Below are positions 1-43,149 of a DNA stretch of 64,000 nt, one piece after another. A program made the position numbers and the translations under genes. Position 1 is the first letter of the stretch, and each line of letters opens with the position of its first letter. Origin of the DNA: Isoetes taiwanensis. Lineage: Eukaryota; Streptophyta; Lycopodiopsida; Isoetales; Isoetaceae. The notes under the pieces are model-generated. The model saw only the letters and a program-made list of their open reading frames with translations, was not told the origin of the DNA and searched no databases. The stretch lies in assembly GCA_021234155.1 (NCBI GenBank), contig JAJEKV010000051.1:8638105-8702104 (forward strand). Direction: 5' to 3'.

Positions 1-2
1 CT

Positions 3-131
3 ATTGTTATAAATGGGCCTCCTTGTACAAGAGACTTTGACTTCACACAAAGCATAGAAGTGTGGAAAAATAAGGCTGAGAATCGTGGTCGTATTATCTA
101 CTCTGGACAACCAAGTCGCTATTTAGCTTAG
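3..131 (+). CDS. C-terminal exon of an unidentified host gene (partial)
   Basis: An open frame enters from the left edge and runs 42 codons to a TAG at 129-131. The peptide begins IVINGPPCTRDFDF and ends GQPSRYLA, with a mixed composition typical of real coding sequence. I do not recognise the family. It is followed by AT-rich DNA that could be a 3' UTR. The gene would be transcribed toward the Harbinger element at 427. It could instead be a chance open frame, since only 42 codons are visible. Confidence 0.35.
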   Translation: MVINGPPCTRDFDFTQSIEVWKNKAENRGRIIYSGQPSRYLA

Positions 132-302
132 TGGACTTTTTGAAGGGAAATTTTTGTGGAATGTAGTATCTTTGCGATGCCATTTTATAATACATATATT
201 TATCATAAAAAACTTGGCTTTTTGTCACTTTGTTTGTATTGTTGTCTAATTTTTTGGTTTAAGGCATTTTTTCGATAGATTTAATTAGTTACAGGATTTG
301 CA
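132..302. other. AT-rich DNA, probable 3' UTR
   Basis: No open frame or repeat is evident. Its position just after the stop codon at 131 suggests 3' UTR and intergenic spacer. Confidence 0.3.
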
Positions 303-426
303 GATTGAAAAAATTATAATCCAATACCCTTAAATATTATTAGGCATTTTCACTAGTGGAGGGAGTTTCTAATTTCGAACTTTGGGCCTTGACATAATCG
401 TACCGATTGAAAAAATTATAATCTAA
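303..426. repeat. 102-bp tandem repeat, left part (transposon target site)
   Basis: The motif GATTGAAAAAATTATAATC starts at 303 and again at 405, a period of 102 bp. The body (TACCCTTAAATATTA... to ...ATAATCGTACCGATT) recurs at 14246-14327 on the far side of the Harbinger element. In the first unit the stretch ...ATAATCCAATACCCTT is continuous. In the second, ...ATAATCTAA is followed by the transposon. The first unit therefore shows what the target looked like before insertion. Confidence 0.85.
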
Positions 427-457
427 GGGTACCTTCGCACTCGCCGTTAAGTTAGGA
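427..457 (+). repeat. Left terminal inverted repeat of the Harbinger element
   Basis: The 31 bp begin GGGTACCTTCGCACTCGCCG. Against the reverse complement of 14212-14242 I count six mismatches, in the GCACTC/AGACCA stretch and at the AGTT/GGTT position. The outer ten bases and the GCCGTTA and GTTAGGA blocks match. Confidence 0.88.
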
Positions 458-830
458 ATAAGTTAATTTTTTTTAACTGCCAGTTAAACTTATAAGAGAG
501 TGTTATGTTCGCACCAAGACTAAGTTAAGTTTCCGTTAAGACTTTAACCTAACGGAAGCTAGTTAAATCCTTTCAGACTAGAACAAGTTAGGTTATTTTT
601 TTTTAACTTAACAGTAAAATAAAAATGTGTTCGCACCTGCCTTAGTTAAGTTAGTGCTAACTTAATGCTAACGGCAATCTTTTCGCATACGTGCCTATTA
701 AGTTAGAGTCTAACTTAATGCTAACGGCAATGGCTTCGCACATTCATCCATTAGGTTATTTTTTTTTTTTAACTTAATGATAACGGCAATACCTTCGCAC
801 ATACCTCCGTTAAGTTTTATTTTTGTTTTC
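430..830 (+). repeat. Subterminal modules of the Harbinger element (putative transposase binding sites)
   Basis: The motif TTCGCA(C/T) recurs about six times (near 434, 508, 630, 682, 732 and 793). Each copy is followed 9-14 bases later by TTAAGTTA or TTAGGTTA. The later modules are closed by TTAACTTAATGNTAACGGCA just before the next TTCGCAC, giving units of about 60-70 bp with internal TTAAGTTA/TAACTTAA dyads. Related TTAACGGAA and GGTNTGAA motifs lie at the right end. Repeated subterminal motifs are a known feature of DNA transposons, where they bind transposase or the Myb-like partner. That role here is inferred. Confidence 0.6.
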
Positions 831-840
831 TATTAAGTGC

Positions 841-985
841 TTCAAACAATTGTCCTCTTCTTATGCCATTAACAAATTAACATACGAACTCATAACCATC
901 ATGATATCATGCACTTGTTGATCATATTCCATCGCATTAAAACACTACATAATCAACTTGTAATTCAAAGCTTATCATTGAATTC
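841..985. repeat. Partial duplicate of the transposase N-terminal region
   Basis: The segment starting TTCAAACAATTGTCCTCTTC is a diverged copy of 2392-2540, which covers the first exon start of the transposase (codons for the MEDDQQAHD region) and its 5' flank. It includes the shared tail AAAGCTTATCATTG. It is not open. It points to an internal rearrangement or older nested copy at the left end. Confidence 0.6.
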
Positions 986-1040
986 AAAGCCTACCATTGT
1001 CATTCAAAACTTTTCTAGTCAATTTTGTAAGAGACAATTA

Positions 1041-2510
1041 TCAAGTGAAGACTATATATTCAGTTAATGTGCGGCGGATCTCCACACCCAATTCATATGG
1101 GTCTGGATCAGTGTTCGCACGTGGTTCTTCTGCTTCATCTGCCTCATTCTCCTCGATCTCTTCTTCTTCTCCTCGTCTTATTCGCCACTGCCTTACTTGC
1201 TCCAACTCTTCCTCAATATCTGCCTCACCAATATCAATAAGCAGATTATGGAGAATACAACATGCGTGAGTAAGTGTTGGAACATTCTCCGGCTTCATCT
1301 TAAGTTTCGTATCGAGACATCGGAACTTGCACTTTAATAGCCCGAACGTTTGCTCCACATATAACCTTCCCTGCGCCAACTTCTTATTGAAGATGTTCTC
1401 TACATTTCAAAACGAATTGCATTAGAACATGAATTGAAATTAAAACAAAACATAAACTATTAACCAATACCAGCATATGATAAAAGTTGAGCATCCCCTT
1501 CATATGGTGTGATCAACCAAGGAGAGCAATGATAGCCTTTGTCTCCTAAGAAATAGGGTCTCAATTCTCTATGGTCGATGCTCATGATAGGACTTTGCAA
1601 GATTTGACGTTCTTGGATCCTCCTTGCTATCCCTGAATTTCTTAACACTCGTACATCATGCACTGATCCCGGGTACCCACAAAATATGTCTAGAAACCTT
1701 CTTTTTGTATCAACAATAGCTTGCATGATAATGCTAAATCTACATTTCCTATCATAATAATCCAATCCAGCAGGACCACATGGTTGCAATATTTCGAAGT
1801 GCGTGCAATCTATGGCACCAACTGAAAAGGTTTATACACAATTAGTTTTTACTGTAATCAAGCAAAATAAGTAACTTGAACTAGAAATGAATTATAATTG
1901 AAATACCTGCATTTGGAAGCTTTGAAACTTGTTGAAACCCAGCTATCACTTCTAATAATTGGTCACCTGTTGGAAATACTATCTTATGTCCAAAAACTTT
2001 CACAATGGCTTTGCATACTTCCATGACGATCATATGAGCCGTGCTCTCTCCAATGCCAAACTTTTCAGATAGTGCCAGGTAATCACAACCTTTGAAAAGC
2101 TTGTAAAGACAACAAGCTACACGTACATTAACGGGAACGGCTTTTCTATAATGTGTATCTTTTTTCTCAATCTCATCCTGGAGACTATTGCAAAGAAACA
2201 TGAACGTAGATTTTTTCATTCTAAACTTTTTTTGCCATCTACGATCATCATAATAAGACATTAGGAATCGGTCAAACCACGTAAAACTTCTCGGTTCCAC
2301 CCACCATCTACCTTCAGTAGAAACATCCGCACAAGAAATCTCCACATGGCCATGTGTTCTCAAGATATTCATCTGATCATCTATTAAACGGTTCAAGCAA
2401 TTGTCCTCTTCTTGTGTCATGAACAAATTAACATATGAACCCATAACCATCATGATATCATGCGCTTGTTGATCATCTTCCATGTCACTAAAACGCTGCA
2501 CAGTGCACAA
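1041..2510 (-). CDS. PIF/Harbinger DDE transposase (HARBI1-like nuclease)
   Basis: Three exons on the minus strand, 2510-1907, 1821-1471 and 1399-1041, have GT-AG introns of 85 and 71 bp. They join in frame to 437 codons plus stop with no disruption. Residues about 60-190 hold the helix-turn-helix-like HARBI1 N-terminal region. The catalytic region follows: AIDCTHF (first Asp, just after the first intron), GYPGSVHDVRV (second Asp), LGDKGYHC and RLYVEQTFGLLK (catalytic Glu). The protein ends ...LTEYIVFT. The upstream ATG at 2510 was used; a second in-frame Met (MEDDQQAHD) at about 2483 is an equally good start. The length matches plant PIF transposases. All catalytic residues are present, so the element may still be autonomous or may have moved recently. 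Confidence 0.87.
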
Positions 2511-2898
2511 TTTTAGTCAGTTTGTTAGTGGAAGCTTATCATTGGATGATCCATAATACAACATTCAACAAGCTCATTCATATCATAAAAGCTCATTCAA
2601 CAATCATAAAAACTCATTCAAAGCTTATCATTAAATGCTATATAATGCAAAAATCATAAAAGCTCGTTCATAAAGTTTTATATTTTGAAGCCCAGTTAAC
2701 ATGAAAGAGTTTTCAAAATTTCAAAGTTTTAACAATAGTTTTGCATTTCAGATTTTACAAGAGAAATTTCAGATTTCTAATCAAATCTTTCTCCTCCAAT
2801 GGCCATTCCATAGTGGGCAATTCAACCTGCAAAAACAATTTCGTGTTAGAATAGTAAAATTCTCATATGCGCATTAGAGGATGAATGAAGAGACAAAC

Positions 2899-3860
2899 CT
2901 GAATTTGGTGGGCGAAATGATGCTTCTTTGGTTGAAAAGTAGCTGCCCATTTTCTCGAACGCCCCCGCCATCGCTCCCACTAAAGTACGTTGTAGCTCAA
3001 GCTTCTCTTTTTCCACTTCTAATGTTTTCACAAAGTGGCTTTCCATCATTTCTATCATTTCCTTGTTATTTTCTGCCATCGTCTTGGATAAAGAGCTAGT
3101 ATTACTCGCTCTACGTTTTCCAGACGAGGCTTCTTCACCAATACCATGGGGATGATGATCCCCCTCACTAGTACCTCTACTAGTGTCAGCAGTGTGCATT
3201 GGTTCCACGTTAGGCCGACTTGATTGAAAAGAATCAAACATATTATAAATGGCCTCATCAAGAATAGGGAGGTTAAAGTTTTTCTTTTCACTCCTTGACA
3301 AAGAAAAGTATTCTGGCATCCCTGTCCTCTTGCTAAAATCATGGATTGTTTTATACTCACCAATCAAATTTTCGTATTTAGCACGACATCCATTTGCGTC
3401 CCTATCAGTATAGCCATTTTCTATCATTCTATTAGCAATCTTTTTCCATCTAATAATGGCAGATTCCATCTTGTCACGCGCTGATGATGCCTCTAACATC
3501 ATCCATTCCTCCTTTTTAAGTTCGACAAGAAATTTGGTCTCTTCAAGAGACCAATTTCTTGACCTCTTTCGTTTGGAGGATGGCGTAGAGGTATTACTTA
3601 GTTCCTAAATTAGACCAAAACCAGTCCTAAATCAGTCTTAAAAAATCAGACCAAAACTAATTCCAAAAATCAGTCCTAAATCAGTCCTAAAAATCAGACC
3701 AAAGCCCTTATATTCTAAAATCAAATCCTAAAAATCAGTCCTAAAATACAAAAAGATTCTTACCTGTTCTTCAATAAGGGGATCTTGAAATTGTTGCGCA
3801 TCACCCACACCAAATCCTCTCCCATGAGCTTGAACATAACCATCATTAGTGAGAGCACCC
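2899..3860 (-). CDS. Myb/SANT-like protein, Harbinger partner ORF
   Basis: Two exons are visible on the minus strand, 3860-3764 and 3604-2899, joined in frame after ...DPLIEEQ. The second exon opens with a basic stretch (SSKRKRSRNW) and a SANT/Myb-like trihelix: NWSLEETKFLVELKKEEW, then WKKIANRMIENGYTDRDANG and CRAKYENLIGEYKTI. A Ser/His-rich linker and a charged C-terminal helix (MAENNKEMIEMMESHFVKT) follow. In this transposon family the Myb-like protein binds subterminal DNA and recruits the transposase. It is encoded next to the transposase on the same strand, about 390 bp upstream of it. The start codon was not found, so a further 5' exon is likely. A short 3' exon at about 2828 may end the protein soon after PPNSG. 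Confidence 0.7.
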
Positions 3861-4966
3861 TGGATGCAAAATCATGACGCCAAATTATTCAAAGCCATTG
3901 CATCAATAGTTCTAAGTTACTCTAAACATTTCTTAAAAGATTTGTCCATTTCTCCACCACTAAAACAAATATAGAGAACAAAACCTTTAAAAAAGCATCA
4001 TGCTATTCAGTTCCCTTTAAACCAAATGCATGCTTACTCGTTATTTGGAAAAGTGAAAGGTTGAAATGTTACCTTTATCTGAACTGTGCTTAGCTGCTCT
4101 TACTTAAAGAACTATCATAAAGAACTGTGCTTAGCTGCTCTTACTTGAGTTCTAACAATTATAAGAACTGTCCTATCATAAAGAACTGTCCAGTAGCAAT
4201 AAGAATTTTGCTAAAATCGATGTACAAAGTAAAAAGCCATTCAAGGCTGACAGCAGGAGCAAACTCCCTTTCTAATTTAAGCAATGCAAAATTGTGTCTT
4301 TTTTTGTGATAAATCCTTTTGACAATTATATAATTTCCAAATGTTATGCCATGGATAAATGCTGATTATGTTGGAAGTCTGCATCGAAGTTTTGGTTACA
4401 GTAACTGCATATGAGACAGGGCCATAGCCATGTTTTTCTTCCAAGTTCCTCACAAAAAACCTCACATTCCTTCAATTCATGCATATGTTCCTTATGATCG
4501 GAAGTGGATAAAAACTCGGGCCTTTCAACACCTGAAGAAACTTGCAGGCCAACCAAGCTGAAACTGTTTAGAACAATATTGAATGCGTTGTGAAGCATTA
4601 GTTAACGCCAATGTACATATTGCTAGCGCTTGGTTACATCTGTGGCCTGTTGGCTTGTCGATTAATTTTGCAGCTTTCATCAACCAAGAAATGTCATAAG
4701 ATTTATGAAGGGGATGATGGGACGGTTGTTTAATATTTACTCGTGCTTCTGAATGCGCCTCAATACTTTATCGTCACCTTGTATAGCTGCTATAGCCTAT
4801 TTTTATTGGCTGAGTACTTTTTACAACAGAGTGTTTCTTTGGCTTGTGCCGCCTTAAAAGTAAAACGTATCTATCTTAACAGTGAGGTGGATGTTTTTGT
4901 GCTTCCACGATTGGCCTTTTGTAATGAAAGCAGGCATTGCATGGTTCTTAACTGAATGATGGCAAG
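3861..4966. other. Transposon interior, no recognised gene
   Basis: A tandem stretch with two copies of AAAGAACTGTGCTTAGCTGC lies near 4080-4140. A minus-strand frame around 4456-4598 looks coding (it contains SSGVERPEFLSTSDHKEH) with a possible acceptor upstream, but I cannot assign it to a family. Nothing else is supported. Confidence 0.3.
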
Positions 4967-4969
4967 CCA

Positions 4970-5069
4970 GGATAAAGTTTGTAAGACAAAAACTTGGCTC
5001 TAAAACATCCTGGAGTCCATGTGTGACGAGGATAAAGTTGGTAAGACAAAATCTTGGCTTTAAAACGTC
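4970..5069. repeat. 60-bp direct duplication
   Basis: GGATAAAGTTTGTAAGACAA at 4970 recurs with few changes at 5030, and the similarity continues through ACTTGGCTCTAAAACATC. There are two copies, period 60 bp. Confidence 0.7.
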
Positions 5070-5311
5070 GACGAGTAGAAATGGTTGGCATTCTTGGCTT
5101 CAAATCCCACCTGGAATATATTTCCCATTTTATTATTGTTACCGGAAAAAGCTGATCACACTCCATTGGCTCGCATGAAGATTTGCTCCTCACTCCACCA
5201 TACAAACTAGAGTTTGCCCAAAGGGGAATTCTAGCCTAGTGTGAGCCTAGTATGTGAACTCATATTTTATGTCCATTCAATGTGCTGAAGATCTTTGTTT
5301 ATATTTGACAG

Positions 5312-5474
5312 GGAATGCTGCAACACAATACCTGGTACATTTTTCTTTGTTAGCATCAGTACTTGGTCTTGCATCAGCAATGTCAGGATTCTGGTATCAG
5401 AGGAGACAAGAAAGTCATGCTGCAGCATGTGCAACTGCTCTCATTGCTTTGGTTGTTGCACTTCTTGCTTTTGG
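5312..5474 (+). pseudogene. Captured AWPM-19-like membrane protein exon
   Basis: The exon lies between an AG acceptor (TTTGACAG) and a donor (GTAAGT). It encodes GNAATQYLVHFSLLASVLGLA, then AMSGFWYQRRQESHAAACAT and ALIALVVALLAFG. AWPM-19 family proteins are small plant plasma-membrane proteins with four membrane segments and an invariant GNAAT before the second. The exon matches segments two and three, including the basic loop between them. The flanking family exons (N-terminal helix and the final ACKEI-type segment) were not found nearby. The next recognisable sequence is a sulfate transporter fragment in the opposite orientation. It is an isolated exon inside the Harbinger element, hence probably captured. 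It has no frameshift. Confidence 0.72.
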
Positions 5475-5577
5475 GTAAGTGAAACAGGCCGTCTCTTGAA
5501 TTTCTTGTCATTTTTGAGCTCTGCACGAACTTTTCTGTTCAAAGATCATATTTCTGATTACAAGAGAACATTATGTG

Positions 5578-5847
5578 CTTTGCAAGGACAGCAGATGCAT
5601 AACAAAAATACCCCCAGTGATAATGATGATTATTATACAATCCAAAGCCAAGCTCTGCAGCAGGGTCTGCTGCAGAATTTTTACTGATTAGTCCTCCCCA
5701 TATGCTGTCATATGCAATAGAATTGGCACGAAATGTTCCATTTAACCAGGGAGTGATAGCCTGAACAAGAAACAACCGAACCTTTTTCACAAGCTTGAAG
5801 CATCCAATTTCTTCTGCAATCAATGCCATCCTTGCTGCCCTTGCAAA
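5578..5847 (-). pseudogene. Captured GH81 endo-1,3-beta-glucanase fragment
   Basis: About 90 codons read FARAARMALIAEE, then FLVQAITPWLNGTF, YDSIWGGLIS and FGFGLYNNHHYHWGYFCYA. This matches the conserved catalytic core of GH81 laminarinases, which hydrolyse beta-1,3-glucan such as callose; the family motif is YNDHHYHxGYFxYA. Here YND is YNN, so a conserved Asp is changed. The fragment continues in the same frame from a sulfate transporter fragment with no stop or gap, and reads on for 12 unrelated codons to a stop at 5539. It lacks the rest of the roughly 650-residue enzyme. Confidence 0.75.
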
Positions 5848-6150
5848 GACATTAGCTAGTCCAATAGCTATCATCTCTTTGTTCCCATCAAGATGGTAAC
5901 CCCTGAGAAATGCAAATGTCCTTCCAACAGCAATGGCTTCCATTAGAGCAACCAAAGCACCCATAGCCCCAATCTTTACGGCAGATAAGACAAGAGGGCC
6001 ATGGAAAATAAGTTTGTGAAGAGATGACGGATTAACTCCTTTAGGCTGGTGGCCAATAATTCGAAGATGAGAATAAGCATGAGTTAACCAGACACAGAGT
6101 GTACTCATGATGATACAGAGTGTACTCATGATAACACCAAATGTAGATTC
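5848..6150 (-). pseudogene. Captured sulfate transporter (SULTR-like) fragment
   Basis: The minus-strand frame reads LRIIGHQPKGVNPSS, then LVLSAVKIGAMGALVALMEA, IAVGRTFAFLRGYHLDGNKE and MIAIGLANV. The GLNPSS, EAIAVGRTFA and YxLDGNKEMxAxG signatures belong to plant sulfate permeases (SLC26/SULTR), in their middle membrane segments. The upstream part (VIMSTLCIIMSTLC) contains a small in-frame tandem duplication of about 18 bp. The frame is open and passes directly into the GH81 fragment, forming a chimeric ORF of 227 codons from an ATG at 6222 to a stop at 5539. The first 25 codons are of unknown origin. Confidence 0.75.
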
Positions 6151-6330
6151 TTTAATTACAGTGCTCGAGTCTGCCATAAAGGATGCTCGAGCAGTGGTGA
6201 AAAATGGTGGCAGCAAAATCATTTTGGCGGACTTTTCCAGTGATTACAGACTACATTTGACGACGAGACCTATGCAGATAACAATGCAACATTCATTCAA
6301 TCAGATGCTATAATCCATTAACCTGCTGAC

Positions 6331-6438
6331 CTGTTCACTAAGATTTGGATCTGGACCCTCAACGTCATCTGCCGCACAATCCCTTGCAGTAATCCACGCA
6401 TTAGAAGTTCCACGACCTCGACCACCAGCATGCACGAT
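6331..6438 (-). CDS. RG-rich exon, diverged copy of the right-end ORF first exon
   Basis: An exon-like segment with acceptor (CCTCAG) and donor (GTCAGC) encodes IVHAGGRGRGTSNAW and ends VEGPDPNLSEQ. The exon at 13795-13940 has the same plan: RGRG repeats followed by EGDEDPLEQ and a GTTAGC donor. I infer that it is a paralogous copy of that exon. The function is unknown. Confidence 0.35.
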
Positions 6439-8919
6439 CTGAGGATTAAACAATTGGATGCTTAGAAAAGAAACAATTGGATGGCCAGAACTAAACAATT
6501 GGCATCTTTATAAATTGAAAAGAACAAGCTGAGCTGACCATCTTCCATCTTATATATGACTAGAAAAAGTGCCCAGCGTTGCTGGGCTATAATGCATGCA
6601 ATATTAGAAAAAAGACATGCCAAAAATTAAATTTATTGAAAAGGCCAATTGAACTTGAGAATCTAAATAAATATAAATATATAAGAAAGATTATTTAGGC
6701 CAGACCTTGGAAAACTTCATGCCTTCTACAATGTTCTTTGCAACATCTAGTTTAGAAAATCACAAAGATTTTCTACATTCTTTGATCCTAGACTTGCATC
6801 TTAGAACATAAAACATGATATTAAGCCCGAGCTAGTCGGTCAAATATTCCTACAATTTGTGGGTTTGATTGAATAGAATTTTCTTAATAGATTAATGGAG
6901 TCAAAGTACTATTATATATGTGTGCAAAAAAAATTATAACATTGTTAATTTAGGGGAGCTCATTTTGCACGACCTTTGGACTTGTTCACGACCTTGTAGA
7001 TAGCATCTGCAAATAAAGATGAGAAATATGAGGCAAATAAGAAACTACCTAAGTTTTTGCCAATGCATATCTAATTTTCTGCCAATACAGTCTTTCCTCT
7101 AGCATAGCACACATGTGACTTGCCATTTTGATGATCACTTCCTCAAGGCCATTGTTTTCACTATGGCCATGCCGAAATAATATAAACACAAATATTTAAA
7201 ATCACGAGGACCTCGCCGAGGAAATCCACCTGCCCAAATAAGATTATGGAATGGAAGCATCCACCAAAGATATCAACGCTCAAAAGGTTAACTCCGCACA
7301 TACTTTCCTTCGCATAATCGATCAACTAACATCTACGACTTCAATTGCTTTCGGTTTTAAGACTATACTTATTCCTAAAAGACAAGTTAGTAAGTTGATA
7401 GCACAAACAGTTTTACAAACCCCAACTTGACAAATCCAACCCTTTGCGGTTCAATCGGCTAAATACGTTGAATCTATTGAATCCATGCCCCGACAACTAT
7501 ATTCCCATTGGAGATGATTATACGAACAAATTTTTTAAAGCTCTCCGGTTTCAATCCACAAAGGGCATTTCATATTCATGACTAATGATGTGTATGGCAC
7601 AAAAAAATTGGAAGCTTCACCTTTTCTCTTGTAGAGAGACAAAACCACGCCAAACCCAACCTTACATATGCATTTTCCCTCAAATATATTTTACTTATCA
7701 CATGGAGAAACCTCCAAGCTGCCTAGAGCTGGTGGATGCTAGAAACCTAGAAGCTAGTATACCAGTCCCTATAACCGGCATTTCCAAAGCACCGGAATCC
7801 CAGCCTTTGAGCCTATTTCTTGCCATAGAATGCAAATGTAAAACAAATAAGAATTTAGAAGACAATAGCTGCAAGAGAATCACATGGTTATTAGCACACA
7901 TTTCAATCTTATATGCTGGTAACTTATAGCAATTTTGTAATCACGAAAATCAATGCAAATACATTTGGGCGTCTAAAGAATGCAAATCCATGGAAGAAAC
8001 GACCAAGGAATGCTTTATCAAAGAGTAAAACTTGGACATTCAAAGCATAACCCAACGCATGCTTACCTCAGATTGCTACATCTTGGGCATACCAGTTTTG
8101 CATGATTCACATAAAGGCCGGGGTAATAAACAACCAACCCAATTTTTTCTTAAGATAGATAAATGCTCGGGCCTATGCGTATGGGGCAGATTTGGGCCCG
8201 AATTCCACCGCAGACGGGAGCAAATGGCGATCCCGGAAAGCATGGGCGCTGGTTCCTACCAAAGAATTTTCACCATTTAAGAACCAGCGGTTGGGTGCTT
8301 TCGGACAATTTTCCTGTTCTACCAATGCTACCATTGTTTCGAATGGGTGGGACCATTGATCCGTGCAAGAGTTTTCGGCTATAAAAATGTCGGCCTTTCG
8401 TCTGCGGGAGATTCTATAAATCTCCCATGATCCGAGGGTCCGGAAATAACAATAAAAAGTATAAGGATAAGGATAATGCTAAAGAAGTCGACAACAGTCG
8501 GTTTTCTAAATTAAAGATTGAAGCCTTAGTAATACAATCCATTATTTCAAGAATTCTTCTATGCAAATCTACTTCCCCATTAGCCATACCAAGGGATTGT
8601 GCGAGAAAACATGCTTAACACGTGGATAGATGGACGTAAGGTGATAGATAACAATACAGAGTATTAAAACCGTGTTTAACCAAAAAACATCACTATCTTC
8701 ACCAAACCAAAAGGAATAATAAGAAAAACATAAAGTACCGATTAATTCCAAGCCGGTAATAATCTTATAAATAAAGCAACACAGTAAACAAAGCGACCTA
8801 TATCTCAAACATACGCGTGTAGTAATCTCAAACCCGTCCAAGACCCATGTTTGCAACCACCTAGAAATGAGCATCCCGCCACTTAAAAGGAACAACACAA
8901 GTAAACCATCCATCTCTAG
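6439..8919. other. Transposon interior without recognised genes
   Basis: Low-complexity and AT-rich DNA. A minus-strand frame at 8569-8913 is hydrophobic with several potential membrane segments, but it overlaps the expected 3' flank of the EF-1alpha copy and matches no family I know. I support no gene here. Confidence 0.3.
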
Positions 8920-10005
8920 TCACTTCTTCTTTCCAAGAGGGTCTTTCTTTTCCACGGCTTTGATAACACCAATGACCCACGGTCGCCTCATGTCACGAAA
9001 CAACAAACCTAGCCAATGGAGGATATTCAAAGAAAAGTTTCCACAGTCATGGGCTTGGTTGGAATCATCTTAACAAAACCTCGCATCACCATTCTTCAAA
9101 AACTTGGGTTCCTTCTCAATCTCCTTTCCTCGACCGCGCCTACCTTGGTCAATCTCGAAAAAACTTGATCGCAATGTGAGAAGTGTGGCAATGCAAGATC
9201 CGCGCGCATAACCATTGCCAATCTGACTGGGTGATTCATAATAATAACTTTGAAAGCGGTGAAGTTTGCGGCTTCCTTTGCTTAGGGTCATTCTTGGAAT
9301 CGGATGCAACAAAACCACGTTTCAAATCCTTGACAAAGAACATTCTTCGATTGAATCCAACATTGTCACCGCGGAGCCTCCGGAGGGACTCATGATGCAT
9401 TTCCACGGACTTGACCTCGTGGTAAGTCCCGTGAGGCGCAAAAGTCACAACCATACCAGGCTTGAGAATACACTGTCTCAACTCTTCCCACCGGCAGTTC
9501 AATACCACCAATTTTGTAAACGTCCCGGTGGGAGACGCAGAGGCTTGTCGGAAGGTCTCTTGGGTTCTGTCCAAATGCGTCGGCCCCCTTGTACCAATCA
9601 AGGTTAGCGAACGTTCAATCATGTTGTCTCCCTCAAACCCCGCAATAGGAACAAATGGGATCTTGTCCGGGTTGTACCCAACTTTCTTCAAATATGAAGA
9701 CACTTCCTTGACAACCTCACTCCCAATGTGAATGCAAGGAGTGCATGCTCACAGGTCCGACCATCCTTAGAAATATCAGCCTCAAAACCTCCAGTTGTAG
9801 AATCAATAATCAAAATAGCACAATCACCAGAAATGCAAGAGAACTGCGTCGATCGGTTGGAAACAAAGAGTGTCAAATCGAGTGAACTTTACCCGTGAGG
9901 TTCCAAAGAATCATGTTCTTAATGAAATCACGATGCCCGGAGCATCAATAATTGATCTGATTGTACCGTGGTCTCAAACTTCCACAAGGCAATATCAATG
10001 GTCAA
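8920..10005 (-). pseudogene. Truncated, frameshifted EF-1alpha copy
   Basis: On the minus strand, pieces of translation elongation factor 1-alpha appear in order. They are TIDIALWKFET (10003), a shifted [124 protein letters not shown], then VIKAVEKKDP and GKKK, with TGA at 8920-8922. The N-terminal about 75 codons (P-loop region) are absent. About 23 codons after LGV (around CCCNKMDA) are deleted, and there are at least five small frameshifts. No intron is visible across the remaining coding sequence, which fits a retrocopy but could also be one large exon. It cannot encode a working factor. Confidence 0.85.
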
Positions 10006-10172
10006 TCGTAAAACACAGCCAAAAAAATAGCATATGCAAGTACATTATATCTTGGTAAATCGATGCCCCTGTTTGCATTAAAAATGTATTAAAAGTCGAC
10101 AATGGTCTTAAGTTTTGGCTCCTTATTGTCACAAAACCGCAACACGATCAAGTTGGTCATCCAAACCGTGGT

Positions 10173-10360
10173 TTACTTTGACAAGCGAAAAAAGATTGTA
10201 TGTCTCGGTGAGGGCTGAAGCAAAGATATCATTGTTGTAGTTTTCAATGCATGCACCAATTGTTGGAAGCACTTCATAATTTGATGGGTTGTAGAGCTAT
10301 CTAGACCGGTTGATATATTATCCATGAATAGGGTTCTTGCTGGCCCCACTACCATTTCTC
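10173..10360 (-). pseudogene. Captured PDR-type ABCG transporter exon
   Basis: After an AG acceptor (TCTACAG) the minus strand encodes [20 protein letters not shown], then [20 protein letters not shown] and [12 protein letters not shown]. This is the Walker B/D-loop region of the first nucleotide-binding domain of full-size ABCG (pleiotropic drug resistance) transporters, whose usual text is [15 protein letters not shown]. The catalytic Glu after the Walker B Asp is Asn here. After LLQPSP a one-base shift is needed to recover ETYNLF. It is a single decayed exon, in the same orientation as its EF-1alpha and laccase neighbours. Confidence 0.75.
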
Positions 10361-10859
10361 CTGTAGAGATTCATGCACAAAATGATGGAGACAAAATTAA
10401 GTTCTATAAAGAACACTTTGAATCAAACATGTAATTGGTAAACAAAGTTAGTTAATAAAACGCTCAAGCGGATACACACTTTCGGTGTCGGCAAAATCCG
10501 GACCACAAAGAATATATGAAGCACTAAATCAACCAAAGCGGGCACAAAAAATACAATCTCGTAACAAAATGCAAATCATACGTACCTTTAATTCTTCAAC
10601 ACGAAAGGTCACGCCTCACGGCCATCCCAATGTTACGGGATTATGGATAGTTTCAAACCAATCGTAAAGAAGATATTTATTATGGAAGAATATGAGAGGT
10701 TTATCCTACTGCTGTCGAGCATTTACGGGGCACATGTAAGCATTTGCCAAATATAAGTGGCAAGTCAAGATCCATATAATAGATATTAAGGTGATAGTCC
10801 ATGCCTCCAACTCCCTGTCCCATTGTTATTTCTTATACACAATGAAACAAACAATACAT

Positions 10860-11440
10860 ACTGTGAGGAGCAATTAAAGTAAAGGGGCCCCGGCCAGCCA
10901 TTGTTGTATAGGCATCGAATTGTTGGGTGTCCCTCCTGCTGATAAGGCCCGGCTTATCACGGACTCAATAAGACATAAGTTAACATCCTAAGATACAACT
11001 CTTTAACAGTTTTGTCTTGTTAGTACCTAGAACAAGGGTAACTTCCTTATCGGGCTTTGCAAAGGGGAATCCATCCCTTCTCTAGGATGAATTATGAATG
11101 CTCCATGGATTGTTGCTCGAGCCATGCTATATGTGCATGCCACCGAGTGTCCCCTGTTTGGCCTTGAGTTGTGAAATTGTATAGGAAAGAGTTTCCGGTT
11201 GAATTGGACATTGTGTAATATATGCCACCCATCGAACCATCCCGAGCGGATTTGCCTCACTCCATGCCCATCAACACAAAAGTTAATATACACATCCATC
11301 TCAAATTGATGAGTATTTGGTAGTGTCTTACCAAAGAATGGTGATGTTATGTGGTGATAGATTATTGACCCTCGATAAGTACCCTATCTCCTTCATTTGC
11401 ATGGATCTCGGTCCGAGCGCCCATTTATCAGAAGGATTTC
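10860..11440 (-). pseudogene. Captured laccase fragment (multicopper oxidase, N-terminal domain)
   Basis: Minus-strand pieces in order are NG..GPEI.A.EGD (about 11420), NLSPHNITI, HGVRQIRSGW, a shifted Y-ITQCPIQP, YNFTTQGQTG, WHAHIAW, RATIHGAFIIHPREGMD, KPDKEVTLV and, further on, DAYT.NGWPGPLYFNCSS. These are the first and second cupredoxin motifs of plant laccases, including the copper-ligand motif WHAH (WWHAH in the family). An HWHGV motif is suggested but broken. Several single-base shifts separate the pieces, so no continuous frame remains. Plant laccases oxidise monolignols and phenolics in the cell wall; this copy cannot. Confidence 0.75.
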
Positions 11441-11880
11441 TAGTCATGCAGTAGTCTGGTAATGATCAGCATTGTCACCTATAAAATGCAAGAATTAACA
11501 CAAAAAAACTATGACACGATGAAAGAGATAAAACGAAATTGAGAAAGGGAGCACAAAGGCAAACATTAAACTCGTAATTCGATGATGGTCGCAAATGAAA
11601 AGCGAGAGAAACACAAGGATAACAAAGCATGTTGTGATAGACTCTTGTGCGCCCATGTTTGTTGGAATTGAGCAGGTTGTTTGATGAATGGGCCACAACT
11701 CGCTTTTTATAAGTTAGGCTAAACCGTGTAGTTGGAGCGTTCAAATCTATTGGGCAAGCACGGAATGCATCAAATCTAAGCTAGGCCTTGCCTACCTCAT
11801 TTTAGTTATAAGCAAGCTCATATATTCAAGCTTCATATCTTACCCGATGTCACCAGCCATCCGGAAAACCCACGCTTTTG

Positions 11881-12080
11881 TTTGCAAAGAAGCGTAGAAA
11901 TTGTGATATTGCCGAGCCGCCGCTGCCGCCAAAAGGGAAGGAACGCACCACATCCGGAGACCCAACGAAACCTTTGGAAAAGCCACGTTTGTTTGCAAAG
12001 AAGCGTAGAAATTGTGATATTGCCGGAGCTGCCGCTTCGCCAAAAGGGAAGGAACGCACCACATCGGAGACCCAACCGCT
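11881..12080. repeat. 111-bp tandem duplication
   Basis: TTTGCAAAGAAGCGTAGAAA starts at 11881 and at 11992. The similarity runs about 87 bp through AAAAGGGAAGGAACGCACCA and ends near GAGACCCAAC. The units differ by a few substitutions and a short indel. Both strands have open frames through the duplication, which I regard as accidental. Confidence 0.85.
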
Positions 12081-12619
12081 CTTGGAAAAAAGAACACACA
12101 TCTCGGCCATCTATTCAATCGAATGGCCCTGCTGCTTGCAAAACGAATTTCGGGGATGTTCAAGGACGAACTTCTAATCAATAACCAAAGCTATCTTTTA
12201 CCGGAAGTAAAGCAATTCTAACCCCATTCCGGCAATCAATAACCATAGCTATCTTTTACCAGAAGCAATTCTAACCCCATTTCGGCATTCAGGAACTGGA
12301 AAGGGAAGATGCGAGAAGCAGAGAGCCAGAACCGTCGTATAAAGAAAACCGCCAAAAGCCAAAATCAAGGGATGAAAATAAGTTGAGAAAATTCAACGCG
12401 CAAGATTGCGCACAGACTATCACAAAACGCCTTTATTATTATAGATGCTTACCCTGTTTATAAAACATCTCCTAAATGTTTGAGAGCATATGTGCTAACG
12501 AATCTCATATGTGCCTAAATTTTATATGAGCATCTGCTCTTACAACTAGTGGAGGGATATCTATAAGAAGGATTGAATTTTCAAGGCAAATTGGAGAAGG
12601 CAAAGGCCTTTGCTGCAGG

Positions 12620-13055
12620 TGTGCTACGCATTGGCAAAGCAGGATGCCTTAGATTGGAGTTTTTCCACCATGTGAAACCCTTAAATTGAAGGTTTTGATA
12701 ACTTAAAATTCCTAGACACCAAATTGTGCACAGCAGCAGCATCGGCCCTCATCCGTTTAGCTAATAAATGTGATTTCTCATTTCCAGAAAATATTGTGGC
12801 AGCAATAATGGCTGCTCTTTTGTTTCTCCTGTTTATTTCAAGCCTTTTGGCAAAGCAAACCTTTGCAGCTTCCTTAGAATCTTCCTGAGAGGCTGGCAAC
12901 AATCTAATTCCTAAACCAAGCTTCCTAGCATATGCTGCTTCTTCTGCCACTCTTTTCTTCTGTGCCCTAAGCTGAGATCTAAGAGCTTTGTTAGATGCAT
13001 AAATCACTGTGCTTGGCAAAAGCAGGATGCCTTAGATTTGGTGTACTACGCAGGA
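12620..13055. repeat. Pair of short direct repeats flanking the last exon of the right-end ORF
   Basis: GCAAAGCAGGATGCCTTAGA (about 12635) recurs as GCAAAAGCAGGATGCCTTAG (about 13014), both next to CTACGCA. The two copies bracket the segment 12660-13010, about 380 bp apart. Confidence 0.55.
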
Positions 13056-13940
13056 TGTTGCAAGTACAGTCCCAGCAGATACAGGCATTTGAAGACAAGA
13101 TGATTTCAGCACCCTTTAGCATTCATGACATTCTGTGTATATCATGCTTGATGGTGTTTGCAGATCATCAGTGGGTAGATCATCGGTGTCCATATTACTA
13201 TGACCAGGTCTTTCAGGGATTTGCATATCAAGGTTAACATCATATTGCTCCAAGGCAGCTTCATTCCTCTTTTCAATTATACAACCATCATGTTCTATAT
13301 CCAAAGGTAAAATCACAGGTATTTTTTTTTACTTTGTGGGACTTCACCATCGAAAATTCCTGAGAGCCAACATCTAATGAAGCCTGCTCTTCATTTTCAT
13401 CAATATCCATAGCTTGGCTCTTCTTTTGATTTTCTCTTTGGGAGGCTAGAAGAAGTCGCATCACCTTGTCCAGGCTTTTGTCCAGGGCTTCCAGCTTCTG
13501 AAGTGTCGGCTCAATATATTCTACCTCTTTCTACTGCTGGTTAATCATATCTTTAGTCTTCTCAAGCCTGTCTGCATAGATGTTGTCATCCAAGTTGTCC
13601 ATAGAAACTCTATGAAATCTCTATTCTACAATGTATTCTACAATGTGAAGGCAGGATCCAGATTCCAGAAGTATAGACATACAGGTTCTTGGTAACGAAA
13701 TACAGGTCTGGCTGAAATGCAACTCAACCCACATCCTTAAAGCAACCTCCAATCCCAGAAATTTGAGTTTTTAGGAAAGCTAACCTGCTCCAAGGGATCC
13801 TCATCCCCTTCTTGTTGTTCTGATGATGCAAGTTGTGAAGAGGCAGACCTACTGCGACCAGCTATCCCGCGACCACGACCAGCTATTGGGACACGTCCTC
13901 GACCTCTAAAAGAAGTTCCGGCTCGAGCTTTATCCGCCAT
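12681..13940 (-). pseudogene. Right-end transposon ORF: RG-rich, coiled-coil protein of unknown function
   Basis: Transcribed inward from about 300 bp inside the right TIR. Exon 1 (13940-13795) starts MADKARAGTSFRGRGRVPIA with an arginine/glycine-rich tract and ends DEDPLEQ before GTTAGC. A second block (about 13605-13116) starts MDNLDDNIYADRLEKTKDMI and contains a heptad-like stretch (LQKLEALDKSLDKVM), then an acidic segment. It has one in-frame TAG after MINQQ. A third block (about 13010-12681) is basic and Ala-rich: NKALRSQLRAQKKRVAEEAA, with stop at 12681. I recognise no family. The internal TAG suggests decay or a misread intron. The position suggests an accessory element-encoded gene or another captured host gene. 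Confidence 0.42.
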
Positions 13941-14211
13941 TTCCGACAGCTTCGTTCCTCCTCGTTCCGACAGCTTCGGCCTCCGTTAAAATTTTAAACC
14001 GACCTCGAAGAGGTCACTTTAATTTCTAGTGTATTTTTTAAATTGCGTTAACTTTGCGTTTAATTTTCTAACTTAGGGTAAATGAGTATGAAGGCATTTT
14101 GAGTTAACACTTTTAGGTTAAAATATTTAACGGAATGTTAAATAAATTTATTAACGCAAAACTAACTTAAGCAGTGGTGTGAAAGGAAAACCTGCTAAAA
14201 GCTTAACGGAA

Positions 14212-14242
14212 TCCTAACCTAACGGCTGGTCTGAAGGTACCC
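14212..14242 (-). repeat. Right terminal inverted repeat of the Harbinger element
   Basis: It reads TCCTAACCTAACGGCTGGTC and ends GAAGGTACCC, the partner of 427-457. The TAA duplication follows directly. The preceding 250 bp carry TTAACGGAAT and AACTTAAG motifs resembling the left subterminal modules. Confidence 0.88.
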
Positions 14243-14245
14243 TAA

Positions 14246-14330
14246 TACCCTTAAATATTAGTAGGCATTTTCGCTAGTGGAGGGAGTTTCTAATTTGGAA
14301 CCTTGGGCCTTGGCATAATCGTACCGATTT
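14246..14330. repeat. Right part of the 102-bp tandem repeat (target continuation)
   Basis: TACCCTTAAATATTAGTAGG through CATAATCGTACCGATT matches 326-408 with only a few substitutions. Together with the left flank it restores a normal repeat junction when the transposon and one TAA are removed. Confidence 0.85.
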
Positions 14331-14732
14331 TATGACAAGGGCTGCTAATTGGTTTTAATTTCAACCTTTGTAAGATTAAGGGAGGGTGCCCGGTATCCGA
14401 ACAGGGGCCCTAATATGGCGCACCTTTATGGCACACTTTAACGGCCAGGATCTTCTCATTGGAGCTTTCTTTTAGGACTTTTGATTTGGATGGCCAGGAT
14501 CTTCCGGTTCTGCTATTTTCATATTTTCATATTTTTTCTGCTTCAGCTGTCGGATTGTTGAAACGTGGCGCAGAAGAGCGCCTCCTACCTCATGTCACAA
14601 TGTCACAGGGAAGGTCACGTCCTGCAGAAAAGATTTCTAGCAGGAAACCTCGCAGCGGGCCGGTTTCGTGCCGGAAAGTTTATCACAAAATCTTCGTAGC
14701 CTCGGAATTTTGCTTTGCAGCACTCCTCCAAA

Positions 14733-17700
14733 ATGGCTTACATTAGCTGTGGATGTGGCCCCCGGCCAAGCGTTCGGTCCATCACAACTTCGGTCGTGGA
14801 GCCCAGAAGGTACTACTTAACCCTGTTGATGAAGTTTGGAGTAGCATAAATATCATATCCAGTTAGCCATAGCAGATTTGCTGTCTTGGGTGCGGGGTTT
14901 GCTGGAATCTCAGTGGCTTGGCATCTATTACAGGTTTGTCTACGGCATGTTTCTGATTAGCAGATTAGGCAAGTATAGAAATTGTAGTGGGAATAAATGG
15001 GTCATTATTTAGATGAACGACATGATATGGGTTCCGTTACTTCTGCATTCGTCAAACTGATTTGTAAAGTGCTCATTTATATAAAACAAATGACGCTTGT
15101 GAATTCAAGGATAAATACCAATTGGCTGAAAACGCCTTCCTTATTTGGCCCTTCTGCTGATGTGGCATCATAAATGAACGTTGATGCTTGAATTGTAGGG
15201 CCAGATTTGATGCCACGTCAGTGGGGGGGCCTAATAAGGAAGGTGTCCCTGTACGGTAGGACATATTGGTTCAATATTTATATTCTTGATAATAGTTATG
15301 TTGACATCCAATAACATCCGCAGCTATGCTCGTTTCATCATCAATGTTGCTGGACAAACTTGTCAAGCACTCTCCACCATCTCAAAATTGGTCAAAGAAA
15401 TAACTTCGTCCAGGTGCAGTTTAATCAACTGCTTAAAAAGTTCCTAGTCAATACTAAACATCTCCATTATGAGGAATACGAACGTTGTTGGGCTTCCACA
15501 AAGTCTTGATTCTGATTGGCCCATTTTTAGCACATCATTTTCATCTTCTAATTAGCTTTTCCATTCATGTTATTGTGCTAAGTCTTTGCACTATGACATT
15601 GGCATATAGCAGCATGCAGATTTATCATCACCAATTTCGGTTGACCTCTTTGATGAAGTTGGCATTGGAGCAGGAGCTTCAGGTGCCTCAGGGGGGCTTT
15701 TGCATCCCTTCTCTCCAAAGGGTATGTTTTGGTCTCTCGATGATGTCCTTCCTCAAGCTAAGAACCTTGTTTCACTCTCATGAAGGTAAACTTCTTTGGA
15801 AAGGAGATGTGGGATGGGTAGCAGCCATGGAACTGCTAGATGTTGCTGAAAGAACCATTTATCAAGCCAGCAGAGGAGAGATTGAACAGCCAACATGTCA
15901 GGAGGTGCCAATTGGTCCCATTGCATGGAGGAGGTCTGAATATCTCTATTTTATCTTTTATATACCTGGCATTGACTGTGAATGTTTATATCAGAGGTAT
16001 TATAAGGCCTATACTAGCTGAAAATCATGCTAGACGTGTTAGGAAAGTAAGCTTAAAAATCACAATTTTATTATATTCACATATTAAAAAAATAGCGCGT
16101 TCTTTACAAGATTGATGGGGCTTGTGTGCAGAACTTAGACAAGTGTTCAGCAGCCATCTCGTGCATAAGTGGTGCAACTGCAAAGTCATATATTTTGGGG
16201 CTTTCTTTGCGTGACGAAGATCTTGTTTTGCACATGCCTAATGCCATTAATATTCATCCTCAGAATTATCTTAAGGTGAGTGCATGTGCCAACTAGTTGT
16301 ACCACTAAGTTAGCAGTTAAGCTAGCCACTAATTCCACTTACTTAGGTAACTATAATTCCACTTTTTTAAGTAACTAATAATGCTGACTTTGACTTGTCT
16401 ATGCATGTTATCATGTGCAGCCATCAACTAAGATGGCAAGTCAATAACACTGCCTTGTTGTTCATGTCAATCTTACCTTTTGTGCCATATCCGTTCCCAT
16501 AATTTGACAAGTATGTTCACACTGTGCCATGCACAAAAATCAAAACCCCATAATGCTCAAATATCAATATTAATGCTAGGAATTAGATGCTAAATTAGTG
16601 GCTAAGTTAGTGGAAACACGAGTTGGTTAAAATTACACTACAACCTGTAATTGTATTAAGCCAGTTTCTGTTCAAATTTAATTCCCTACTATCCCCTAAC
16701 TGCTCTCTTTAAAATGTTCAGTACTTGTAGCGGAATTTGAGTTAAGGCATTGGCATTTCTTTTTTTATTTGAATGGAGGCAAGCTCTCGCTCCTTGAAAA
16801 ATCTTTTGTTCAAAAGTCCTTTTTGCAAGGAAAGAGGGAGTTCTCCTTGGGGAATATAGGAGGTCTTGCCTGAGCTCAACACACTCAGCAACTGCTTAAA
16901 CTGTATCTCTTCATCGAATAAACTCAATACAGTCTTAAATAAGCATTATTTTAAGATGTCCTCTAAAGATCATTATTTTCTCTATTTTTGGGTTGAGATT
17001 GACCTAGTGGGCTCTACGGATCCTTAGATTGGTGGTCTGTAGAGACACACAACATACTACGGTTGTCGTGTGATTTCAGCTTATTAGATTCTAAAGGGAT
17101 AGTTCAGAAAATCCTTTGTTACAGTTTAGGAAGGATTCCCTCTTAGCATGGTGACTTCTTCTTTTTTATGGAGAAACAGAGCTGAAGCGGCATGGATCTG
17201 TTTTTTTTTTGGGGAAAAGCGATGAAGGAAACTTAAGAAGGTATTGGGGGAACAAGAAACCAGCATGTCAAATTGACATTGATCAAGAAAGTGTCTTATT
17301 ATAAGGTTCTATATGAACAAATGTTACGGGCTTTCACGCCCAGAAATGTTTGAGATAGATCTTTAGAAAGAGGAGTTTAACTCCTTTCAGGAAACCTGAG
17401 AAAGAAGCGAGAAGTTCATTTTAAAAAGTGAAACCCTAGAAACTCAGGGTTATGGAAGGTCTGGCCATTGAGCAAGAGATTGCCAGTCAAGATCAAACGG
17501 GGAGAAAAGTATCCGCTAATACTCAGCTTGACCATTAAGCTTTACACAGAAGGAAAGACTAGGGCTTCCATTATGGGAAGTTTTTGCTCCAGTGCAAGGA
17601 TGAGAACAATTGGGGCAATAATGAAATTGGCAAATAGCAAAGTTAGAAATTTTCAATTTGCCTATGGTAAAGGAGTATACAATGCCAATTTAGGAACAAT

Positions 17701-25760: not shown

Positions 25761-27150
25761 GGACCTTGCCCTCAAGGTTGATCCTTTAGATGAGGGAACT
25801 ACTGCACAAATTCCTCCGTCTCCCAGGTGGCATCCTCAAGAGACTGGTCCTGCCATTGAACCAGATGTTATACCACATCTCTATTGCGCAGCTGCCGAAC
25901 TCTTTTATCTAGAAGACGTTATGTCGTTACAGAGGAGTTTAAGACGATCGGTATACTTTGCGGACTAACCACGTTAGCGGTATCCAGTATAGCCCTCTTC
26001 AGCTGACTTACATGAAACACAGGATGGATCCCTACTTCCTATGGTAAGTTCAACTCGTACGCTGTTTCCCCGATCCTTTTAGTAATCCTAAAAGGTCCAG
26101 CATACCACGGAGTAAGTTTAGGCACCCGACCTTTGGTTAAAGGCCGCAATATGTTCATTCTTAATGCCGAAGGATAAATGACCCGTAAGAAAATGTAATC
26201 ACCTTCCGCATAAGAAATATCTTGTCTATGCTGATTAGCAGACGCTCGTGCCCTATCTTGAGCTTTTCGCAACGCTTGCTTGCATTGCCGCAGGATTGCA
26301 TCCATATCATGAAGCATGTGTACTGCAACTTCGGTTCTAAGGTACTTATGTATACCAGAATAAGCCCTTGGGTTTCTGCCCATCATAACCACAAAGGGAG
26401 TCATCCGAATTCCCGTGTGATGGCTATTATTATAAGCGAACTCTAGATAGGGTAAATAATCTTCCCACCTAGACTGCTTCTCGTGGACAAAACTTCGCAA
26501 CATGTCCTCCAAGATCATGTTTATGTGCTCAGTTTGTCCATCCGTTTGTGGATGATTACCACTACTCATGTATAATCGAATCCTTAATCCTTTCATGAGA
26601 TCTCTCCAGAAGTGACCCATGAACTTAGTGTCTCGATCACTTACAATGGATAAGGGAAGTCCAAAAGTTGGAAATATGTTTTGCATATAGGCAACTGCTA
26701 TGTCGTGTCCCGTAGCCTCCCCTTTCAATGTTATAAACTTAACATACTTGGTTAACCGATCCACTATTACTAAAATCTGAGTATGTTGCCTAGCAGTTCT
26801 AGGTAATGCGACTATGAAGTCCATACTCACGCTTTCCCAGCGTTCATTTGGTATAGGGAGAGGTTGTAACAATCCCAGAGTTTTCCCATGATCCGCTTTC
26901 ACCGCTTGACACACCAAGCAGTGACTTATCAAGTCCTTGACTTGATCTTGCAACTCTGGCCAGTAGTAGAACCTTTTAACCAACTCATACGTCTTCCATT
27001 CACCTCCATGCCCAGCTTGTGGAGTGTCATGCCCTAAGGTCCCCACTTGAAGGAACATAAATCCTTCCCTTATAGAAATGCAAACCCTCTTGCTCAGTCC
27101 ATAGCTCCCCGAGCTTGACCATCGCCGGATCTTGCTGATCCTCAGGATAT
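25761..27150 (-). pseudogene. Gypsy integrase with degraded chromodomain-like C-terminus
   Basis: The zinc-binding HHCC module is visible as [11 protein letters not shown]...RFYYWPELQDQVKDLISHCLVC. The DDE core has MDFIVALP, IVSDRDTKFMGHFW and a Glu in TEHINMILEDMLRSFV. The GPF/Y-like region PWYAGPFRITKRIGETAYEL follows and the open frame stops at 26039. Past it, other frames give HPVFHVSQLKRAILDT, RRVRQLRNRDVV and HLVQWQDQSLEDATWETEEF. This is a chromodomain-like segment interrupted by three stops. A frameshift near 27050 separates the integrase from the RNase H frame. The domain order identifies a chromovirus. Confidence 0.85.
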
Positions 27151-28353: not shown

Positions 28354-28356
28354 TGA

Positions 28357-28490
28357 TTTTGCTAAAGCTTACGATAGTGTTGATTGGGGTTTCTTGGAGA
28401 AGTATCTTCTTGCTCTTGAGTTCAGGGAGTCATTTACAAGAAATGTCATGAAGCTTCATACGTCGTAAATGGTGAGCCTGTCAATTATGC
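28357..28490 (+). pseudogene. LINE reverse transcriptase scrap
   Basis: [20 protein letters not shown], then LALEFRESFTRNVM and, after a frameshift, SYVVNGEPVNY, correspond to the non-LTR RT palm region (LDFxKAYDxVxW is diagnostic). The fragment starts at the gypsy junction, where both sequences share AAGCTT. It is about 45 codons and clearly truncated. Confidence 0.7.
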
Positions 28491-43006: not shown

Positions 43007-43149
43007 ATGAGTGTTATAGAAGTTGCTCTATATAGAAGCACTCATTCGCTAGTAACTTCACTTTCTCCTTTATTTTATAAGATAGGATATTACAATGCTA
43101 GAACCTTAAAGTTGAATTGAACTGCACTTGTGATGTTCTCCGAACTACA

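Follow-up and report, generated by a model that had tools for sequence, protein, structure and literature searches.

A PIF/Harbinger transposon of Isoetes taiwanensis with a mosaic of host DNA in an ORF1 intron and a separately inserted Helitron

The element, its insertion site and its genes

We analyzed a stretch of 64,000 nucleotides of the lycophyte Isoetes taiwanensis (the window; C1058:8638105-8702104, on contig JAJEKV010000051.1 of assembly GCA_021234155.1) and searched 1.658 Gb of the genome with parts of it. The terminal inverted repeats (TIRs), the target site duplication (TSD) and an empty site together define one PIF/Harbinger insertion of 13.8 kb at positions 427-14242. This copy is called WIN below, and other copies are named by their contig (C108, C1018, and so on). 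Intron 2 of its ORF1 gene holds a mosaic of host DNA that is shared with a single other copy, and a Helitron with cargo of its own has inserted separately into intron 1. All features are listed in Table 1.

The TIR arms of 47 nt are 79% complementary, with termini GGGTACC...GGTACCC, and TAA on both sides agrees with the 3-bp TSD of PIF/Harbinger elements, usually TTA or TAA. Genome searches gave first-look totals of 317 and 205 candidate family termini. Identical 3-bp flanks (TAA, TTA or TGA) were found in 11 of the 17 other oriented copies; five had no exact end motif on one side of the stretch examined, and C1 showed CTA/TTA. The C1 copy (L029/L030), a 16.9-kb candidate with mismatched flanks, is perhaps two elements or carries a mutated TSD.

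The locus of WIN is duplicated 44 kb upstream on the same contig, where a genome search with the right flank (14244-16617) returned 2.27 kb at 99% and 106 bp at 100% identity. There, the empty site (C1058:8593900-8594700) contains a single TAA, and 530 bases, corresponding to window 1-426 joined to 14246-14349, match without a difference; over the whole alignment 550 of 580 columns are identical, with every mismatch beyond 14349. Because the empty site joins both flanks exactly, the outer TIRs are not the coincidental ends of two elements, an objection that the preliminary description of this locus had raised against itself, and the TIR-to-TIR boundaries and TAA duplication given there are borne out. 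The stretch is thus one unit, which either entered after a recent duplication or left the sister locus precisely, and WIN is, as judged from these alignments, a very recently inserted transposon. It sits in the second unit of an approximately 101-bp tandem repeat (D3). At the sister locus, about 3.3 kb of extra sequence (C1058:8594489-8597828) begins 104 bp to the right of the empty site, at about window position 14349, and represents either another insertion there or a deletion in the window.

The transposase matches DDE_Tnp_4 (PF13359) at 6.5e-16 and 8.4e-11, with PF04827 below its cut-off, and has 112 homologues, some of them named HARBI1 and ALP1, in keeping with the PF13359/PF04827-type DDE transposase of PIF/Harbinger elements. 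The second gene expected of this superfamily, the Myb/SANT-like ORF1, matches Myb_DNA-bind_4 at 1.3e-8 and has RGG-rich N-terminal exons. Both genes had been recognized in the preliminary description, which called the transposase apparently intact; it does read open over 428 aa. The exon-intron structures of the two genes were inferred from sequence, not from transcripts. Since both frames are open, WIN is predicted to be coding-competent. Its ratios of nonsynonymous to synonymous substitution (dN/dS) against eight copies range over 0.12-0.52 for ORF1 and 0.12-0.57 for the transposase (16 pairwise NG86 comparisons over 162 to 427 codons, gaps and stop codons excluded, the close pairs resting on few changes). 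When the best matches in other copies are aligned to exons 1 and 2 of ORF1, 34 gaps result; the length of 21 of them is divisible by three, and the remaining 13 are confined to C108, C1057 and C1048. Short copies, e.g., C1056b and C1095, also contain most of the subterminal stretch that duplicates part of transposase exon 1.

Host DNA in introns 1 and 2 of ORF1

The mosaic occupies about 2.3 kb of intron 2 (3965-6245) and consists of eight pieces of about 50-760 bp, drawn from seven contigs at 93-98% identity and lying nearly end to end (query 3893-6266, with 25 of 25 genome candidates scored). In its entirety it occurs only in WIN and C108, at 92% in the latter, and all other matches are to single pieces. 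The fragments lie inside the TIRs and, as the flanks of C108 differ from those of WIN, have been mobilized with the element, as in Pack-TYPE transposons. The occurrence of fragments inside other copies, which the preliminary description had proposed as a check, thus holds in C108 for the mosaic and for the piece in intron 1. The stretch 3910-3964 was dropped as a donor piece, its source in C1007 lying inside another family copy; it is still included in the nine-piece junction and divergence counts, in which the pieces cover 2141 of 2374 bases with overlaps counted twice. We did not count as a piece the 26 nt at 4189-4214 that match the GH81 locus (7e-6).

The edges of the pieces end sharply against their donors. 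The AWPM-19 piece is a coding stretch followed by GTAAGT and then by the downstream sequence of the donor, so genomic DNA was copied there. A single GH81 locus served as donor two or more times, at places separated by other pieces. Aligned to their parental loci, as the preliminary description had also suggested, the GH81 and sulfate transporter pieces are fragments of far larger domains: the GH81 donor matches GH81C at 3.6e-85 over profile positions 5-330, against 37-128 in the piece, and the sulfate transporter donor matches Sulfate_transp at 2.2e-73 over 95-378, against 192-290. For AWPM-19, the 1-kb donor locus and the piece span the same part of the profile. Divergence from the donors is homogeneous across the nine pieces (p = 0.11), and neighboring pieces overlap by 1 bp at 5578 and by 3 bp at 5844-5846. 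One control stretch of equal length, the right flank 14244-16617, gave no comparable mosaic among the best 40 of 186 candidates, a selection from which weak single-copy matches could escape. It matched the segmental duplicate, two repeats of high copy number and, in three short matches (33-123 bp, 83-97%), loci of C1102.

The nested stretch in intron 1 is a separate element, a complete and probably non-autonomous Helitron, which we class by its ends and target. It has a 5' TC and a 3' CTRR end, and the hairpin GCCCAGCAACGCTGGGC is followed by ACTTTTT and CTAG, in agreement with a hairpin about 10 nt from the end; CTAG and ...AGA|T ends (TC on the opposite strand) were seen in all four copies inspected. 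It lies between A and T without a TSD: three sister copies of the Harbinger (C108, C1018, C1049; L018, L021, L027) lack it, leaving ...ATATATGA joined directly to TGCT..., and the four inspected Helitron copies have A...T flanks. A genome search with 6558-12443 returned at least nine further long copies at 81-95% identity among the best 40 of 801 candidates; those on C1042, C257, C930 and C1069 align without interruption, stopping no more than one base short of either query end, and three more span both ends in two pieces. Six frames of 427-14242 gave no Pfam match to Rep/helicase at E 0.01-0.05; as a RepHel protein is expected of autonomous Helitrons only, this one is probably non-autonomous. 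Because the EF-1alpha, ABCG and laccase fragments lie within it, they are Helitron cargo and not Harbinger capture. The best other loci for these stretches have 80-96% identity (assigned by position and not as genes, among the same best 40 of 801). Plant Helitrons are known to carry gene fragments, and the element here shares their TC/CTRR ends, 3' hairpin, insertion between A and T and cargo from several genes, with nothing unusual.

Table 1. Features of the PIF/Harbinger element and its cargo (window positions).
Feature	Position	Strand	Evidence
Left TSD, TAA	424-426	.	Sequence; empty site (L053) with single TAA
Left TIR (GGGTACCTTCGCAC...)	427-472	+	Inverted pair 426-472 / 14197-14243, 79%; terminus recurs in other copies
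Subterminal partial duplicate of transposase exon 1 (2380-2500)	829-949	-	Direct repeat D1, 121 bp, 87%
Transposase gene, DDE_Tnp_4, 428 aa	Exons 2483-1907, 1821-1471, 1399-1041	-	Pfam; GT/AG sites; frame open
ORF1 (Myb/SANT-like) gene, 372 aa	Exons 13940-13785, 6438-6331, 3859-3764, 3604-2846	-	Phase-0 GT-AG; Pfam
ORF1 intron 2, captured mosaic	3860-6330	-	Gene model
Intron sequence, not a donor piece	3893-3964	+	Shared with C1007 family copy to 3916; 3910-3964 at 93%
Captured piece, GH81 locus C1081/C1070, outside GH81C domain	3987-4082	+	97%
Captured piece, C941:14898169-14898401	4208-4440	-	97%
Captured piece, C1031:10402616-10403412	4468-5228	-	94%; second locus C956, 90%
Captured AWPM-19 piece, C1038:11068319-11068668	5233-5578	+	97%; Pfam 4.3e-11; also C1050
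234-aa stop-to-stop frame joining sulfate transporter and GH81 pieces, sense to ORF1	5539-6243	-	Frame list; Pfam
Captured GH81 piece, C1081:20501-20769	5578-5846	-	98%; GH81C 1.8e-18
Captured sulfate transporter piece, C1037:11279809-11280076	5844-6111	-	98%; Sulfate_transp 3.9e-15
Captured piece, C1076:5200175-5200225	6135-6185	-	96%
Captured piece, C1056:25318511-25318572	6197-6258	-	94%
ORF1 intron 1, nested Helitron and one captured piece	6439-13784	-	Gene model
Nested Helitron, 5886 bp, target A^T	6560-12445	-	5' TCTATAATAATAAAGG at 12445; 3' hairpin GCCCAGCAACGCTGGGC and CTAG at 6560
EF-1alpha fragment(s), Helitron cargo	9236-10002	-	9236-9748 Pfam 3.7e-34; 9715-10002 matches same C1045 locus
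ABCG/PDR transporter fragment, Helitron cargo	10173-10370	-	Pfam 1e-4, weak
Laccase fragment, Helitron cargo	11027-11383	-	Pfam 1.7e-4, weak
Further captured piece, intron 1, C1026:17887039-17887409	12646-13014	+	97%; present in C108 too
Right TIR (...GAAGGTACCC)	14197-14242	-	Inverted pair with left TIR; terminus matches other copies
Right TSD, TAA	14243-14245	.	Sequence and empty site

Elsewhere in the window, two long open frames on the minus strand (26039-28361) resemble by eye the reverse transcriptase/RNase H and integrase of a Ty3/gypsy-type element, and a 362-aa minus-strand frame (41939-43027) resembles by eye a LINE-type endonuclease region.

Cargo and relationships of the other copies

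All three of the other copies that were searched by DNA (C1018, C1057 and C101) carry different cargo, each from multiple sources. That of C1018 comprises pieces from C914, C1036, C1044 and others at 76-96% identity and is common to C1049 at 84%; purple acid phosphatase signals appeared in two of its four frames scanned with Pfam, out of six. The C1057 cargo has pieces from C1052 and C1018:25.13 Mb at 85-97% (best 40 of 608 candidates), and that of C101 has pieces from C1018:37.38 Mb, C1067, C1026 and C1081 at 81-97% and is partly common to C1030 (best 40 of 47). Pfam found nothing in all six frames of the C101 cargo, though DNA matching gave several sources, which indicates that small or non-coding pieces escape Pfam. 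When 18 frames of C1057, C1095 and C1067 were pooled and scanned with Pfam, two families appeared, DIOX_N at 2.5e-7 and CAP at 1.3e-4. The 16.25-kb copy C1030 has a 10.4-kb insert in ORF1 intron 2 (L019:2641-10000 and L020:1-3072), in which 12 frames matched no Pfam family; we do not claim it as gene capture. Within the C1057 cargo, a 240-bp repeat (L026:885-3677, query 481-719) has many copies in the genome, a good number of them at 95-99%, and is perhaps a young small repeat family.

The core tree of nine copies is (((WIN,C108) 98/97, C101) 100/95, C1030) 100/100. C108 has many insertions or deletions of 1-2 bp, 45 of them against WIN in the core, and is either degenerate or poorly assembled. 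Of the 2101 ungapped columns of the nine pieces, 2 have a difference in WIN only and 133 in C108 only; in 45, WIN and C108 both differ from the donor, and in 1 all three sequences are different. The more distant copy C1007 shares the intron sequence of WIN up to 3916, again over 3910-3964 (about 820 bp further in) and over 6246-6266, and differs in between, a pattern consistent with the loss of intron sequence and its filling by foreign pieces.

Origin of the mosaic and its place among gene-capturing transposons

We consider it likely that the intron-2 mosaic of WIN was acquired in the common ancestor of WIN and C108, probably by break repair; the Helitron inserted separately into intron 1 of this copy. 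That ancestor would have gained the mosaic in intron 2, together with 12646-13014 in intron 1, when the element suffered an internal break, or a gap left by excision, and the polymerase that repaired it switched among ectopic templates. Selection for a working element, with ORF1 intact, may be the reason that cargo is tolerated mainly in introns. Template-switching break repair is favored by the scattered contigs, the two orientations, the overlaps of 1-3 bp and short fills, the reuse of the GH81 locus, the uniform divergence and the loss of intron sequence.

Several observations weigh against this reading. The differences from the donors that WIN and C108 share (45 of 2101, 2.1%) exceed the expectation from the core stem (0.26%). 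When polarized by second copies of three donors (L055, L056, L059; 1320 columns), 10 of the changes belong to the side of WIN, 14 to that of the donor, and one difference is three-way, which makes this tension mild but real; the C1070 comparisons (L057 and L058, with 6 and 3 differences) were excluded from the sum because C1070 is identical to the donor and cannot polarize. The sequence at 3893-3964 is partly common to the distant C1007 and not to the closer C101 and C1030; this disagreement between intron states and core tree implies recombination among copies or turnover of cargo. For this reason we hold capture on the stem branch of 0.0026 only loosely. Of the eight junctions, just two have overlaps; at the remaining six, fills of 4-125 nt separate the pieces. 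These fills contain three repeats of at least 15 nt, where 200 shuffles gave none. Re-copied repeats of this kind nevertheless turn up, one or more per stretch, in 11 of 20 further 2374-bp stretches of the window; we therefore rejected local re-copying at junctions as proof of templated repair. Finally, C108, C1049, C1067, C1108, C907 and C1030 have frameshifting gaps or stops in ORF1 exons 3-4 or the transposase, and with many relatives damaged the conservation of both genes is partial.

Other origins account for less of the evidence. The preliminary description held that a single Harbinger element had itself captured all six gene fragments, which do all lie between one TIR pair and one TSD and were all recovered with Pfam, ABCG and laccase weakly. 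Yet half of them belong to the nested Helitron, whose termini, at least nine other long copies and precise absence at the A^T target in three sister copies refute Harbinger capture for EF-1alpha, ABCG and laccase; fragments bounded by the ends of another transposon were what that description had named as evidence against it. Capture of all six is thus very improbable, and what stands is capture of the AWPM-19, GH81 and sulfate transporter fragments and of the pieces that match no Pfam family. That a cargo-carrying Helitron is nested directly beside the mosaic invites the thought that the mosaic, too, arrived in the WIN/C108 ancestor as the cargo of an unrecognizable nested transposon, a second Helitron or a Pack-MULE. 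We regard this as unlikely: the mosaic edges show no TIR pair or Helitron end (by eye, with no formal test), none of the 25 candidates scored was a further genome copy beyond WIN and C108, and other Harbinger copies carry different mosaics in the same introns.

In the Pack-TYPE route of Catoni and colleagues, proposed for maize Pack-PIFs (PMC8903248), two neighboring elements are mobilized with the intervening DNA, which is later trimmed. The sulfate transporter donor does lie between a left and a right family end in the same orientation, about 18 kb apart (C1037:11269300-11288280). That route is nevertheless quite improbable for pieces of 50-760 bp from seven contigs in both orientations, with no family terminus seen between them and with the GH81 locus used at least twice around other pieces. 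Capture through reverse-transcribed gene transcripts, to which two C1018 cargo pieces that skip about 550 bp of their source C914 might point, is hardly credible here, given that the AWPM-19 piece runs past GTAAGT at 97% identity to its donor.

Gene capture by PIF elements is a known category, of which WIN is a variant, and the new category of "Pack-Harbinger" suggested in the preliminary description is not needed, since PIF elements with transduplicated gene sequence have been published (PMC2528002; PMC8903248). The grapevine PIFs are reported to retain the coding capacity for transposase and ORF1, and transduplicated genomic sequence with exons and introns is frequent in Pifvine-3, where it forms a region as long as 3.5 kb and is sometimes shared by several copies (PMC2528002). 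WIN resembles Pifvine-3 in carrying such sequence; that cargo, however, is a long 5' region outside ORF1 and the transposase, whereas in WIN it is a seven-contig mosaic inside the ORF1 introns. The Pack-PIFs of maize and rice likewise combine PIF termini with small host-gene pieces at 97-98% identity to genes, but Pack-PIFs are defined as non-autonomous and the maize example averages 535 bp (PMC8903248), against 13.8 kb and two open genes here. Because its transposase and ORF1 are open with dN/dS below 1, WIN is not a Pack-PIF in the strict sense. For animal Pack-TIRs, gap-filling and FoSTeST models likewise propose template switching with microhomology, whose median is 2 bp and which is present at one breakpoint or more in 67.6% of the elements; Harbinger is unmentioned in the main text searched (PMC8277862). 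Turmoil-1 of C. elegans combines a Harbinger transposase with two captured coding pieces, which unlike those of WIN come from two genes only and lie in inverted repeats (PMC2572040). We found no cargo in ORF1 introns of PIF elements in the literature searched (titles, beginnings of abstracts and passages of a 2026 review, PMC13317346, with subscription journals little covered). As far as this literature goes, what is apparently new is that the cargo of a coding-competent copy lies in its ORF1 introns and is mosaic to such a degree.

A bolder and rather doubtful idea is that the family is a self-mobile gene-shuffling machine, whose own ORF1 introns serve as cargo holds that break repair refills repeatedly at no cost to transposition. 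Splicing could then connect the sense-strand frame of the sulfate transporter and GH81 pieces in intron 2 with the RGG-rich N-terminal exons of ORF1, and the element's own promoter could drive its expression.

The locus illustrates how one transposon nested in another can make captures seem more numerous than they are: three of the six gene fragments belonged to a different element. The usual view of gene-capturing TIR transposons is that they are stripped-down, non-autonomous passengers, and it is debated by what route they acquire sequence from multiple loci. With an empty site, a sister carrying the same cargo, donors for most pieces and differently loaded relatives, WIN makes the models of capture, tandem re-mobilization or break repair with template switching, testable base by base within one young family.

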